This document shows, in pieces, positions 17,321-53,713 of a stretch of 64,000 nt of DNA. The DNA is from Paenarthrobacter ureafaciens (lineage in GTDB: Bacteria; Actinomycetota; Actinomycetes; Actinomycetales; Micrococcaceae): the NCBI RefSeq assembly GCF_004028095.1, contig NZ_SBHM01000007.1, positions 124,001 to 188,000 on the forward strand. The letters are read 5' to 3'. Under the pieces are notes generated by a model that was not told where the DNA came from, ran no database searches, and saw nothing but the letters and a program-made list of their open reading frames with translations. Position numbers and translations under genes: made by a program. Numbering within the stretch: the first letter of the stretch is position 1; each line of letters begins with the position of its first letter.

Positions 17321-18292
17321 ATGAGTCACGCGCACCCTGAGAACTGGCCTGTACTGTTCGTTGACGGCGCTTTGGATGCCGAGCTGTTTAAGGATTTCAG
17401 CACCTTGGGTGCTGCTGCTGCCGAGTCGGATGGAAATCCGCCGCTCTCCGAACAGACGCTGGTGACACTGCGCGGCTCCGACGGCGGTGTACACCGGGTG
17501 CTGTCCCTGGCGCTCTACGCCCCCGACGAGGACTCGGACCCTGCCACCGCCGAAGACCTGGCCGGGATCGCCGTCGTCATTGAATCGCCGGACGGTACCG
17601 GAGTGCTGGAACTGGCCGTCCACCCTAGCTACCGCAACCGCGGCGTCGCGGGACGGTTGTTGGCTGCCTTGCAGGAGAAGCGTGGATTCGACGGGTTGAC
17701 GGCTTGGTCGCATGGCAACCATGAGGCCGCTGCCGAACTTGCCTCCCGGTTTGGCTACGGTCCGGTCCGCGAACTGCGGAAGATGCGCTTGATGTCATCT
17801 TCGTCTTCGCTGCCCGACGCCGCCCTGCCGCCCGGCGTCACCCTGCGCGCCTTTGTGCCGGGCCAGGACGAGCAAGCCTGGCTGGCCGCCAACCGGGCCG
17901 CCTTCGCCCACCACCCGGAGCAGGGCTCCATGACCCTGGCCGATCTGAAGGCCAGGGAGGAAGAGGCCTGGTTCGATCCCGAAGGCTTCCTCCTGGCGGT
18001 CGACGCCGACGGCACGTTGCTGGGTTACCACTGGACCAAGGTGCACCCGAAGCAAGGTCCCCATCCGGCCATCGGCGAAGTGTACGTGGTGGGGGTGACG
18101 CCGGACGCGCAGGGTTCGGGCTTGGGCAAGGCCCTGACTGTAGCCGGCATCCGGCACCTGCAGGAGAAGGGCCTCCACGCTGTCATGCTGTACGTCGACG
18201 CTGACAATGAGGCCGCTGTGGCCCTCTACCGGAAACTTGGCTTCGTCCGGTGGGACACCGACGTCATGTACGGGCCTTTGCCCGGTAATTAG
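17321..18292 (+). CDS. mshD: Mycothiol synthase
   Basis: Acetylates the cysteine amine of Cys-GlcN-Ins using acetyl-CoA, the last step of mycothiol synthesis. The 323-residue protein has two tandem GNAT domains. The N-terminal one is degenerate (LELAVHPSYRNRGVAGRLLAAL); the C-terminal active one carries VVGVTPDAQGSGLGKALTVAG and the MshD-typical IGEVYVVG and LYVDADNEAAVALYRKLGF. TAGCCT at 17309-17314 lies six bases before the ATG without a ribosome site, pointing to a leaderless message. Its place just upstream of ppk is common in actinobacteria. Confidence 0.95.
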   Translation: MSHAHPENWPVLFVDGALDAELFKDFSTLGAAAAESDGNPPLSEQTLVTLRGSDGGVHRVLSLALYAPDEDSDPATAEDLAGIAVVIESPDGTGVLELAVHPSYRNRGVAGRLLAALQEKRGFDGLTAWSHGNHEAAAELASRFGYGPVRELRKMRLMSSSSSLPDAALPPGVTLRAFVPGQDEQAWLAANRAAFAHHPEQGSMTLADLKAREEEAWFDPEGFLLAVDADGTLLGYHWTKVHPKQGPHPAIGEVYVVGVTPDAQGSGLGKALTVAGIRHLQEKGLHAVMLYVDADNEAAVALYRKLGFVRWDTDVMYGPLPGN

Positions 18293-50253: not shown

Positions 50254-50982
50254 ATGGACCCGCAAGACAGCCCTGACGGCACCGGCCCCAACGCCGGCGA
50301 CGGGCGCGGTAACGGCGATCCCGGTACCGGCAGGAATCAGCCAAAGCCGCCGCCGTGGCAAGTACCCAAGCCGGAGCTGCATCCCGGTCTGGCGCAGCCC
50401 CCGCAGGGCACCAACGGCCAAGGACAGCCCCGGCAAGGCAAGTCCCCGCAGGGCAACCCCGGTCAGGGTAAGCCCAATCAGGGCAAACCCGGTCAGGGAC
50501 AGGGCCAGAACCAGGACGCCCCGGGTGGTTTCCTGCCCGTCGTCAACCCGTTCGAGAAGGAACGCGAACGGGAAGCACACCGGGAAGCGGCGAGGAAGAA
50601 GCGCTCCCAGCGCCGCACCGTCGTCGTAGGTTTGGGCGTTACCGCGCTCCTTGCCGGCACCATTACGGCAATCGTCGCCAGCAACGAGGCTGAAGCCGAT
50701 TACGCACAGGTTTGCTTCAACGAGGAAACCGGCGAGCGCGTCAACGACGATCAGTGCAACAACAGCAGCTCGGCAGGACGCAGCTCGGGCGTCTATGCCT
50801 GGTACTTCTACTCCCGGGGCGCTTCCGTCCCTGCCGTGGGGCAGAACCGGAGTTCGTACCCGAGCTACACCAAGACAGCCCCGCAGGGAGCCAAAACCTC
50901 CAAGGGATACAGCACCAAGGGCGGCACGGTCAGCCGCGGCGGCTTTGGCAGCAGCTCCAAAAGCGGAAGCTCGGGGGGCTAG
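50254..50982 (+). CDS. DUF1190 (YgiB/YjfM-like) protein
   Basis: A 242-residue protein. A disordered N-terminus with Gly/Gln/Pro repeats (GNPGQGKPNQGKPGQGQGQN) is followed by a charged helix (FEKEREREAHREAARKKRSQ), one membrane span (VVVGLGVTALLAGTITAIVA) and an external domain with Cys-x11-Cys in VCFNEETGERVNDDQCN and a Gly/Ser tail SRGGFGSSSKSGSSGG. The Cys/DDxC pattern, the tail and the next gene match the ygiB-ygiC and yjfM-yjfC pairs of E. coli. First gene of a three-gene operon; function unknown. Confidence 0.8.
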   Translation: MDPQDSPDGTGPNAGDGRGNGDPGTGRNQPKPPPWQVPKPELHPGLAQPPQGTNGQGQPRQGKSPQGNPGQGKPNQGKPGQGQGQNQDAPGGFLPVVNPFEKEREREAHREAARKKRSQRRTVVVGLGVTALLAGTITAIVASNEAEADYAQVCFNEETGERVNDDQCNNSSSAGRSSGVYAWYFYSRGASVPAVGQNRSSYPSYTKTAPQGAKTSKGYSTKGGTVSRGGFGSSSKSGSSGG

Positions 50983-50984
50983 GC

Positions 50985-52193
50985 GTGCGGCGGTTGCCCT
51001 CAACACCCCGGCCCGGCTGGAAGAACAAGATCGAAGAACAGGGCCTGGTTTTCTCCACCACCACCATGCCCGATGGCCGGAAGATCGAATACTGGAACGA
51101 ATCGGCCTACTACGAATTCACCATGGACGAGGTGGAAACCCTCGAGAAGACGGCCGAGGACATGCACGCCATGTGCCTGGAGGCTGCGAAGTACCTGGCC
51201 ACGGGCGCGATGGGAGACATCGGAATCGGGATGCAGGCGTTGGAGCTTGCGGCCGAATCTCTCCAGGCCGGAGACATGGACATCTACGGCCGCTTCGATT
51301 TCATCTATGACGGCCAGGGCGGCCCGGCCAAGATGCTGGAGTACAACGCAGACACTCCTACCGGCCTGATCGAAGCATCAGTGGCGCAGTGGTTCTGGCT
51401 GCAGGACGCCTTCCCGGACAAGGACCAGTGGAACGGCATCCATGAGGCACTCATCCGGCAGTGGCAGAAGCTGCAGTTCCGCACGGGAATGAGCACCCTG
51501 CACGTGGCCCATTCGGAGGCAGAGGAGTCCGGTGAGGACTGGATGACTGCGGCCTACATGCGGGACGTGGCGAGCCAGGGCGGATGGACCACCATCGGCA
51601 TCAACATGTCGGACATTGGCTGGGACCCGAACCTCAACCGCTTCGTGGACCTGGACAACTTCATGATCAGCACCATCTTCAAGTTGTATCCGTGGGAACT
51701 GATGATGAAGGAACCCTTCGGGCATCGCCTGCTGACCCGCGCCCATAACCCGCGATGGATCGAGCCGGCCTGGAAGATGCTGCTCTCCAACAAGGCCCTT
51801 CTGGCGGCCCTGTGGCATCTCTACCCCGGTCACGAGAACCTCCTTCCGGCCTACCTGGGCGGTCCCGGTCCACTCAAGGAGTGGGTGGCAAAGCCCCTGC
51901 ACGGCCGCGAAGGCGACAACATCAAGATCCACGCGCCCGGCATCGACATTGCGCAGGACGGCGGTTACGGACGCGAGGGCTGGTGCTACCAGCAGTACCA
52001 CCAACTCCCTGACTTTGACGGAAACCATCCAGTGCTGGGTCTTTGGGTAGTGGATGGCGAGTCCGTGGGGTGCGGTATCCGTGAATCGGACGGACCCATC
52101 ACGGACTACTTCTGCCGTTTTGTCCCCAACACCATCGACGCACCCGCACCCCAGGGCGCCCCTCCGACTTCCCCTTATGGAGCCGTACTATGA
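50985..52193 (+). CDS. Glutathionylspermidine-synthase-like ATP-grasp ligase (YgiC/YjfC-like)
   Basis: A 402-residue amide ligase of the GspS synthetase domain family, without an amidase domain. Family landmarks: MLEYNADTPTGLIEASVAQWFWLQD, VAHSEAEESGEDWMTAAYMRD, TIFKLYPWELMMKEPFG, EPAWKMLLSNKALLAALWHLYPGHENLLPAY, GREGDNIKI and CYQQYHQLPDF. It probably joins an amine to a peptide or acid with ATP; true glutathionylspermidine is unlikely because the organism makes mycothiol. Start is GTG 50985, two bases after the DUF1190 gene, with GGGGGG upstream; the longer frame is false. Stop overlaps the permease ATG. Confidence 0.92.
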   Translation: MRRLPSTPRPGWKNKIEEQGLVFSTTTMPDGRKIEYWNESAYYEFTMDEVETLEKTAEDMHAMCLEAAKYLATGAMGDIGIGMQALELAAESLQAGDMDIYGRFDFIYDGQGGPAKMLEYNADTPTGLIEASVAQWFWLQDAFPDKDQWNGIHEALIRQWQKLQFRTGMSTLHVAHSEAEESGEDWMTAAYMRDVASQGGWTTIGINMSDIGWDPNLNRFVDLDNFMISTIFKLYPWELMMKEPFGHRLLTRAHNPRWIEPAWKMLLSNKALLAALWHLYPGHENLLPAYLGGPGPLKEWVAKPLHGREGDNIKIHAPGIDIAQDGGYGREGWCYQQYHQLPDFDGNHPVLGLWVVDGESVGCGIRESDGPITDYFCRFVPNTIDAPAPQGAPPTSPYGAVL

Positions 52194-53713
52194 GCACAGA
52201 AACCTCGACGCCGGGTGGCAGCACGGGCGGCAACGGCACCGCCGTCGTCCCGTCCAAAGGCCTGCGGGCAGGAATCCTGGACCTGGGCGACTCCGTCATG
52301 CTGGGCCTGGCCTCCACAGCGCCCGTCTATTCGCTGGCCGCGACCCTGGGCCTGATCGTCGCCGTCAACGGTAACTACACCCCGCTGATCCTGGTCCTGG
52401 GATTCATCCCTGTCCTGTTCATCGCCTATGCCTTCCGCGAGCTGAACAGTGCGTTGCCCGACTGCGGCACCACCTTCATTTGGGCGCGAAAGGCATTTGG
52501 TCCGTGGGCCGGATGGCTGGGCGGCTGGGGCGTTGCCTTGGCCGGCGTCGTTGTCCTGGCCAACCTTGCCCAAGTAGCGGGGTCCTACCTTTGGATGTTG
52601 GTGGGCGACGGTTCCCTGGCCGGCAACAAATGGCTGGTAACCGCCACGGGGGTTCTTTTCATCGCCTTCATGACGTTCGTGAACCACCGCGGCATCCGCC
52701 TCGGCGAGCACGTGCAAAGGACCCTGACCTACATCCAGTACATTTCGCTGGGCATTTTCGCGGTGGCGATCATCGTCCGGGTGGCCGGCGGAGCGCCGGA
52801 AGGCCAGGCATTCACCTTTGAGTGGTTCAACCCGGTGGGCGCGTTCAATGATCCCGGTGCCGTGGTCCACGGCGTCCTGCTGGCCCTGTTCATCTACTGG
52901 GGCTGGGATACGTGCCTGGCTTTGAATGAGGAAACGGAGAATCCGACCAAGACTCCCGGGCGCGGTGCAGTGATCTCGGCCCTGGTCCTGATGGCCATCT
53001 ACGTCTCCGTGGCGCTGCTGGTGATGATGTACGCGACCATCGGCACGGACGGGATCGGGCTGGGCAACGAGGCCAACCAGGATGACGTCTTCCTGGCCAT
53101 GAAGGACGTTGTGCTGGGTCCGTGGGGTTGGCTGATCGTGCTGGCTGTCCTTGCGTCGGTTCTCTCTTCAACGCAGACCACCATCCTTCCCACGGCCCGC
53201 GGAACGCTGTCCATGGGTGTCCACGGCGCCCTCCCCGCCCGGTTCGGCACAGTGCACGAACGCTTCCAGACCCCCGGCTTCTCCACCTTGGTCATGGGAA
53301 TCGCGGCCGCGGCCTACTACGTGGCCATGAGTTTCCTGAGCGAAGACCTGCTGGCCGACTCCATCAGTGCCATCAGCCTCTTCATCGCTTTCTACTACGC
53401 CCTGACCGGGTTCGCGTGCGTGTGGTTCTTCCGTGCCACCCTGCGGGACTCGGCCCGCAACCTCTGGTTCCGCGGGATCTTCCCGTTCCTTGGCGGCGTA
53501 ACGCTGACGGTTGCGTTCTTCGTCTCCGCCGTCCAGATGTGGGATTCGGCCTACGGGGACACGCAGATCTTCGGCATTGGCGGCGCGTTTGTGAGCGGTG
53601 TGCTGCTGTTGGCCCTCGGCGTGGTCCTGGCTGTAGTGTGCCGCTTCGCTCCCTCCACACGCGGCTACTTCACCAAGGAGCACGCCGATATGGGGATTGT
53701 CCGCGGGGAGTAA
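52190..53713 (+). CDS. APC-family amino acid/polyamine permease
   Basis: A 507-residue transporter with 12 predicted helices. The APC signature region is LGDSVMLGLASTAPVYSLAATLG, with FAYAFRELNS-type helix 2 and TFIWARKAFGPWAGWLGGWG. The ATG overlaps the ligase stop by four bases, so it is co-translated with the GspS-like ligase and DUF1190 protein. Coupling to the ligase suggests it carries that enzyme's amine or amino-acid substrate; this is inference. Confidence 0.92.
   Translation: MSTETSTPGGSTGGNGTAVVPSKGLRAGILDLGDSVMLGLASTAPVYSLAATLGLIVAVNGNYTPLILVLGFIPVLFIAYAFRELNSALPDCGTTFIWARKAFGPWAGWLGGWGVALAGVVVLANLAQVAGSYLWMLVGDGSLAGNKWLVTATGVLFIAFMTFVNHRGIRLGEHVQRTLTYIQYISLGIFAVAIIVRVAGGAPEGQAFTFEWFNPVGAFNDPGAVVHGVLLALFIYWGWDTCLALNEETENPTKTPGRGAVISALVLMAIYVSVALLVMMYATIGTDGIGLGNEANQDDVFLAMKDVVLGPWGWLIVLAVLASVLSSTQTTILPTARGTLSMGVHGALPARFGTVHERFQTPGFSTLVMGIAAAAYYVAMSFLSEDLLADSISAISLFIAFYYALTGFACVWFFRATLRDSARNLWFRGIFPFLGGVTLTVAFFVSAVQMWDSAYGDTQIFGIGGAFVSGVLLLALGVVLAVVCRFAPSTRGYFTKEHADMGIVRGE

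Follow-up and report, generated by a model that had tools for sequence, protein, structure and literature searches.

ATP-grasp ligases of the YgiC/YjfC type are widespread, and their target in the cell is unsettled in the literature examined. The related GspS-type synthetases activate the carboxylate of the terminal glycine of glutathione and join it to spermidine, and both E. coli enzymes, YgiC and YjfC, bear the RefSeq name 'peptide--spermidine ligase', of which Pederick et al. 2023 is reportedly the source. Here we describe an operon of three genes, encoding a membrane-anchored partner protein, a ligase of this type and a permease of the APC superfamily, in a 64,000 nucleotide stretch of Paenarthrobacter ureafaciens DNA (contig NZ_SBHM01000007.1, positions 124,001 to 188,000; hereafter the window), itself one stretch of a host genome of 4.40 Mb that is 99.93% complete. 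We tentatively suggest that this operon imports a polyamine and conjugates it to the C-terminus of a peptide, the favoured acceptor being the -GG end of the partner encoded upstream of the ligase.

An association of ligase, partner and DUF350 has been described within envelope-stress operons, DUF1190 being called a metal-chelating lipoprotein (PMC11237479). YgiC is stated to lack glutathionylspermidine (Gsp) activity in a 2025 paper, which cites Sui 2012 (PMC12506659). SUMO and, in vitro, ubiquitin are known to become linked to spermidine through the carboxylate of their -GG end (PMC12270671). The initial annotation of the window treated the E. coli pairs ygiB-ygiC and yjfM-yjfC as being of unknown biochemistry, a description that is outdated because RefSeq now names both enzymes peptide-spermidine ligases.

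Organisation and conservation of the operon

The three open reading frames lie on the plus strand, with the partner encoded at 50254-50982 (242 aa), the ligase at 50985-52193 (402 aa, GTG start) and the permease at 52190-53713 (507 aa); the first junction is a gap of 2 bases, the second is an ATGA overlap of ligase stop and permease start (52190-52193), and the tight coupling claimed in the initial annotation is thus confirmed. Conservation was followed in a close-relative set consisting of the best 80 of 97 loci from a ligase search, all of them Micrococcaceae and nearly all named Arthrobacter, Paenarthrobacter or Pseudarthrobacter. The permease adjoins the ligase in 80 of 80, in two of them in pieces (L057, L077), and the partner lies upstream of the ligase in 79, the remaining contig beginning at the ligase. 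The first gap is again 2 bases in 63 of the 79 measurable relatives, and a permease start at -4 is present in 49 of the 79 measured, when the start nearest to -4 is taken. The three genes stay together in the Arthrobacter-type relatives examined; as the 80 loci are one lineage they show conservation and not independent events.

The ligase-adjacent permease reads in pieces in L173 as well as in L057 and L077, where frameshifts of the gene or of the assembly are possible, and all three were counted as having the permease. On a Pseudarthrobacter plasmid (L234:4001-8132) partner, ligase, permease and a potassium channel stand in a row, and the tailed partner is there annotated as 'tRNA-dihydrouridine synthase', evidently a misnomer.

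The partner protein and its -GG tail

Among named relatives, the one nearest to the first protein comes from Paenarthrobacter ureafaciens (98%), and the protein's nearest Paenarthrobacter homologues are named 'Tat pathway signal protein'. By position it is the counterpart of E. coli YgiB and YjfM, with which it shares the place upstream of the ligase, a membrane anchor and a C-terminal tail. The predicted membrane segment (TVVVGLGVTALLAGTITAIVA, 50617-50679), preceded by RKKRSQRR, is invariant or nearly so across 32 aligned rows; the tail is headed by RGGFG (50935-50949) and continues as a Gly/Ser stretch, SSSKSGSSGG (50950-50979), the final -GG of which carries the proposed acceptor carboxylate. 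Across 51 actinobacterial partners each glycine of RGGFG is either invariant or conserved in at least 90%, and the other near-invariant columns hold two cysteines and a fourth glycine. There is also a strongly conserved proline-rich motif, PPWQVPKPELHP, near the N-terminus and ahead of the membrane segment (window 50350-50385).

Formal membership of DUF1190 was rejected for this protein. It scores 13.9 bits against PF06693 (cut-off 22, E 0.068), none of 51 diverse related actinobacterial partners matches that family at E <= 0.01, and in profile comparisons of the partners with YgiB and YjfM only the RGG[FY]G stretch aligns. Of the likeness to the two E. coli pairs drawn in the initial annotation, the ligase half stands (PF03738) and the DUF1190 half was not confirmed. 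The feature defined in this analysis, an anchored protein upstream of the ligase with an RGG[FY]G...-GG tail, is present in the window. A profile that was seeded from the window partner and iterated on the same loci detects a partner upstream of the ligase, in the same orientation, at 167 of 170 loci, of which 80 belong to a single lineage. The profile missed L139 and L140, the latter nonetheless having an upstream gene that ends in a Gly/Ser tail; the contig of L109 begins at the ligase with no room for a partner, and that of L141 ends at the ligase. The pairing of ligase and tailed partner is near-constant in the loci examined.

The end of the tail is conserved beyond what its composition would give. 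Among 65 distinct Arthrobacter-type tails 62 end in G; the last residue of the 81 distinct non-Arthrobacter tails is G in 62 cases and S in 19, and the residue before it is G in 73. For a shuffle test redundancy was reduced to 74 proteins, 72 of which had usable tails, and each tail's own residues were shuffled; the end is -GG in 49 of the 72, whereas the shuffled tails give 14.2 ± 3.2 and at most 29 in 5000 rounds, and the penultimate residue is G in 65 of the 72 against 32.6 ± 4.1. Rows dropped from this test or doubtful in it are L127, in which the pattern found no motif, and L192 and L198, in which it left a tail of 1 residue. Tail length varies from 6 to 24 residues while the end is kept, and conservation of the -GG end is non-random.

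Outside the actinobacteria 21 loci were read and 19 used, those dropped being Roseomonas, where the partner is cut, and Azospirillum, where no tailed neighbour of the ligase was found; -GG ends 15 of the 19 readable tails against 1.8 ± 1.3 (maximum 8 in 20000 shuffles), 11 of the 19 being also among the 72. Ligases of this family are accompanied by such tails in Actinomycetota, Pseudomonadota, Bacillota and Deinococcota. In E. coli, YgiB and YjfM both have the RGG[FY]G tail with a -GG end, YjfM ending ...SRGGYGRSSSARGHWGG, and two Bacillota lipoproteins with the tails ...SGFGSSSKGGFGG and ...SGIGKSSSSKSSGFGG stand beside ligases that are only ~25% identical to YgiC. Exceptions at the very end of the tail are Asticcacaulis (-CG), Brevibacillus (-GS), a cyanobacterium (-SS) and Sphingomonas (-HA). 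The partners of L120 and L156, from one actinobacterial family, end THLASCGG, with a cysteine just before the -GG.

The ligase

The second protein matches GSP_synth (PF03738) end to end (profile 1-371 of 371, 486 bits, E 1.1e-145), and among proteins of solved structure it is closest in sequence to E. coli YgiC (4.5e-77) and YjfC (5.2e-67), followed by trypanothione synthetase and GspSA. A model built from 34 sequences has a mean pLDDT of 89.5, and Foldseek ranks YjfC and YgiC first (7uk6 TMq 0.86, 7uk8 TMq 0.84) and GspSA next. The ATP-grasp residues, on which the initial annotation had made the functional coupling depend, are kept as far as they were checked: R103, D105, E119, N121 and K303 do not vary in any of the 101 aligned ligases. 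K303, which we take to be the ATP lysine, opens the segment KPLHGREG (51891-51914), where P304, E309 and G310 are likewise invariant. A catalytic role is suggested by analogy for R103-F-D105 (51291-51299) and E119-Y-N121 (51339-51347), from the likeness of these motifs, without alignment, to R139/D141/E163/N165 of Cp1B, an ATP-grasp enzyme in which the R-x-D and E-x-N residues were mutated (PMC12568646). Judged by sequence and modelled fold the protein is an intact YgiC/YjfC-type ATP-grasp enzyme, predicted to join peptide and spermidine.

Glutathionylspermidine, already thought improbable in the initial annotation, was rejected as the product because the host has mshD of mycothiol synthesis, verified at 17321-18292 (TIGR03448, 359 bits, cut-off 163), and because the equivalog test for bifunctional GspSA failed (NCBIfam NF007801, 94.1 bits against a cut-off of 882). 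An amidase domain was not found in the ligase by a Pfam scan, in which only GSP_synth reaches its cut-off.

A ligase-permease fusion, P0130, is a single protein with partial coverage of the ligase and was set aside. The ligases of one Micrococcaceae genus (L192, L193, L198) match in 2-3 stretches of a single open frame, which points to an insertion at about residue 228. Two divergent Micrococcaceae ligases (L190, L191:8398-8865) are directly followed by a gamma-glutamyl cyclotransferase-like gene, tested against PF06094 in L191 only, and a Roseomonas plasmid has two tandem GspS-like ligase genes followed by DUF350 and DUF1190 (L246:2426-4776).

The permease and its probable substrate

By sequence alone the permease is just an APC protein, as it matches PF13520 at 2.8e-30, which places it in the APC superfamily, and an NCBIfam scan reaches no curated cut-off and therefore names no substrate. 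Its relatives are more informative. A paralogue of the same subfamily in the host genome (42%; G000:C7:2207344-2208807, L221:5944-9611) stands in a row with genes for agmatine deiminase (TIGR03380, 292 bits) and N-carbamoylputrescine amidase (TIGR03381, 178 bits), both scores lying below the curated cut-offs, and the same arrangement is found at L222. In 11 of the 20 loci with APC homologues that were chosen (L204-L208, L210-L212 and L214-L216; L209 was left out, its neighbour gene being uncalled) a saccharopine-dehydrogenase-family gene lies beside the permease, a homologue of 49-59% identity. The one representative of this gene that was scanned has carboxynorspermidine synthase as its sole NCBIfam match, and its PDB matches are carboxyspermidine dehydrogenase (5e-42) and three 'saccharopine dehydrogenase' entries, two of them better and one lower. 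These Micrococcaceae loci of APC permease and carboxynorspermidine-synthase-like gene often also have a TetR-like regulator, and could represent a polyamine pathway not yet characterised.

Eight E. coli APC proteins were compared with a profile of the operon permease, scoring 85 bits for PuuP, 85 for PlaP, 57 for GabP, 21 for AdiC, 13 for YbaT, 9 for YjeH, 8 for CadB and 6 for PotE. PuuP and PlaP top this comparison, but at ~23% identity, and the neighbours of the relatives suggest polyamines; the relatives and the PuuP/PlaP scores together point to the permease being a probable polyamine importer.

No familiar spermidine route was found in the host's own genome, since the SpeE family, SpeD and the carboxynorspermidine-synthase-like gene are all without a match there. 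Little weight can be given to the absence of SpeD, which is rare throughout the class (12 of 296 genomes), and for the same reason the idea that the permease compensates for a SpeD lost only in this lineage was rejected. SpeD is present in 6 of 61 ligase carriers against 6 of 235 other genomes, a link that is at most mild.

Distribution of the permease and of DUF350

In the class sample the ligase is found in 61 of 296 genomes, and the permease adjoins it in 5 of the 61, namely three genomes of the same genus and two others in which it lies upstream; one carrier at a contig end could not be judged. In the family sample, with the ligase in 39 of 197 genomes, the permease is adjacent in 9 of 9 carriers of the same genus, as read from fetched loci or match coordinates, and in 14 of the 27 fetched of 30 Micrococcaceae carriers from other genera (G360, G380 and G453 being outside the 27). 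The neighbourhood survey proposed in the initial annotation therefore gives a divided answer, the pairing of ligase and APC gene being rare across the class and usual within the Micrococcaceae. Its remark that the third gene is not normally part of the pair is likewise true across the class, whereas in the window's own lineage the permease is the usual third gene.

Outside the Micrococcaceae DUF350 is near the ligase at 28 of 57 loci by our own profile, 26 of these without and 2 with an upstream permease. Pfam confirms DUF350 in 4 of 4 representatives scanned, as well as in L140, which our profile had missed. Streptomyces-like loci mostly have neither permease nor DUF350. In the ligase tree, within a Micrococcaceae clade of 35 rows, the permease is present in 26 and DUF350 in none, the other 9 having neither, and four more divergent Micrococcaceae ligases outside that clade have neither. 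A genome-wide search for DUF350 was negative in 25 of 25 Micrococcaceae carriers searched (of 39 found, the host included), with controls positive in 4 of 14 in the same search. From this absence and the pattern of the clade the permease is, in these genome comparisons, a Micrococcaceae addition, and it therefore stands where DUF350 stands in sister groups.

More than one such gain is possible, as the ligase tree requires 5 changes of the permease label. The divergent permeases of L184-L187, in the tree of the permeases, group on long branches with L128 and L169 and not with the main set; L128 and L169, from another family, have DUF350 plus an upstream permease. Two flanking genes tested in the window match MOSC and TetR.

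A proposed mechanism and its alternatives

In the mechanism that we propose the APC permease would import a di- or triamine such as putrescine or spermidine, and the ligase would use ATP to phosphorylate a C-terminal glycine carboxylate before forming an amide bond to the amine. The favoured acceptor would be the -GG end of the anchored partner, whose gene lies immediately upstream of that of the ligase and whose tail would be modified before or during export. As GspS-type chemistry acts on a terminal glycine and a -GG protein is found at nearly every ligase locus read, the partner is the obvious candidate acceptor, and the permease is the candidate source of the amine. The -GG pattern is plain in the sequences; the amidation chemistry, and with it the roles of a polyamine as the amine, of the permease as its importer and of the tail as acceptor, is what we infer. 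The core idea of the initial annotation, a ligase that joins an imported amine or amino acid to the Gly/Ser-tailed protein, has gained support from the -GG tail and from the relatives of the permease, with the refinement that a polyamine is favoured over an amino acid as the imported compound.

A number of observations weigh against this mechanism, and the main difficulty is the predicted location of the tail. The basic stretch ahead of the membrane segment of the window partner predicts a tail outside the cytoplasm, the ligase has no export signal and needs ATP, and modification would therefore have to precede export. Lipobox-like sequences, which point to the same location, are present in at least 45 of 74 partners and a twin arginine near the hydrophobic segment in at least 44 of 74, both by crude patterns and both lower bounds because only the last 160 residues were kept of the longer named proteins. 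Tat export could allow prior modification in actinobacteria; this is not obvious for E. coli, where no twin arginine precedes the hydrophobic stretch of YgiB or YjfM, and an explanation by Tat export only was rejected on that ground. The tail itself ends in serine in 19 of the 81 non-Arthrobacter cases and in -HA in Sphingomonas, a control set of Gly/Ser tails was too small for use (7 proteins, two of them ligase partners), and shuffling corrects for composition and not for shared ancestry; the spread of the tail over phyla with little else alike is the better argument. With regard to the permease, 13 of the 27 fetched Micrococcaceae carriers from other genera have none adjacent, and the carboxynorspermidine synthase match of the neighbouring gene is far under its curated cut-off (174 against 800 bits). 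Among 25 related carriers 5 have weak SpeE-family matches, the best at 2.8e-6 and 3 of them above the cut-off, and as SpeD is so rare in the class its absence is not special to permease carriers.

A tail outside the cytoplasm would sit more easily with a ligase that makes free small peptide-polyamine conjugates, the partner being a sensor or membrane recruiter rather than a substrate and the permease still supplying the amine. This is possible, though we think it on the unlikely side. The E. coli homologues are annotated as peptide-spermidine ligases, and the structural relatives are GspS and trypanothione synthetase, both of which have a soluble tripeptide as their substrate; the partner's -GG end is however left unexplained, and no gene for another peptide substrate was seen to recur beside the ligase. 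It seems considerably less probable that the permease imports an amino acid or some amine other than a polyamine, to be joined by the ligase in its place, since relatives of the permease stand in agmatine/putrescine and carboxynorspermidine-synthase-like contexts and GabP, at 57 bits, is outscored by PuuP and PlaP, even though the APC family is broad and the PDB sequence matches of the permease are amino acid transporters. That the tail is a docking or stability element, for recruitment of the ligase or resistance to tail proteases, with no covalent modification, is the most doubtful of the three, as the flexibility of Gly/Ser tails and the stricter conservation of the RGGFG glycines than of the last residues, as for a binding motif, would be accounted for but an exact C-terminal -GG would not be needed, yet it is this end that is kept while tail length varies.

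If conjugation of a polyamine to the -GG of the partner is taken as the working proposal, its extension beyond this lineage, which we put forward with more reserve, would be that in several phyla an ATP-grasp system caps the -GG of a dedicated membrane-anchored protein with a polyamine, as a bacterial counterpart, free of E1 and E2 enzymes, of the conjugation of SUMO to spermidine; those YgiC/YjfC-type ligases that are paired with a partner would in that case be polyamine ligases of protein C-termini, and the Micrococcaceae would have gained their own importer where others have DUF350. Were this true it would mean bacterial protein modification with polyamines at the cell envelope, tied through operons of the DUF350/PspA type to envelope stress, and a long-unexplained enzyme family would become directly testable. 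The conserved -GG tail names a specific acceptor that is cheap to test, and the permease of this lineage names a likely amine.

Comparison with known systems

The association of ligase and partner is already known; in literature searches judged mostly by listed titles, no paper on the -GG tail or on the permease variant was evident among the matches listed. The window ligase resembles those of the E. coli YgiB-YgiC and YjfM-YjfC pairs in family, length, fold and conserved residues, and as in those pairs an anchored partner with an RGG[FY]G tail and -GG end is encoded directly upstream. However, the two E. coli operons have no permease, yjfC sitting with PspA, DUF2491 and DUF350 genes, and overall sequence homology of the window partner to YgiB or YjfM was not detected. 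With GspSA and trypanothione synthetase the ligase shares the ATP-grasp synthetase domain (Foldseek E 3e-25 and 1e-20), but it differs from them in that no amidase domain was found, in an identity of ~20% and in a host that has mshD.

The PspA/CesT/DUF350/DUF1190/ATP-grasp envelope operons likewise combine a GspS-like ligase with an anchored partner (PMC11237479); unlike in these, DUF350 is absent from the host genome and a permease stands beside the ligase instead. Of the 8 E. coli APC proteins compared, the putrescine:H+ symporters PuuP and PlaP score highest against the profile of the operon permease, at 85 bits each, although the permease is ~23% identical to them and its polyamine substrate is putative. 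Finally, the chemistry proposed here, a polyamine amide on the -GG carboxylate of a protein, is that of the conjugation of spermidine to SUMO and ubiquitin, which relies on eukaryotic E1/E2 enzymes and beta-grasp proteins and not on an ATP-grasp ligase (PMC12270671).

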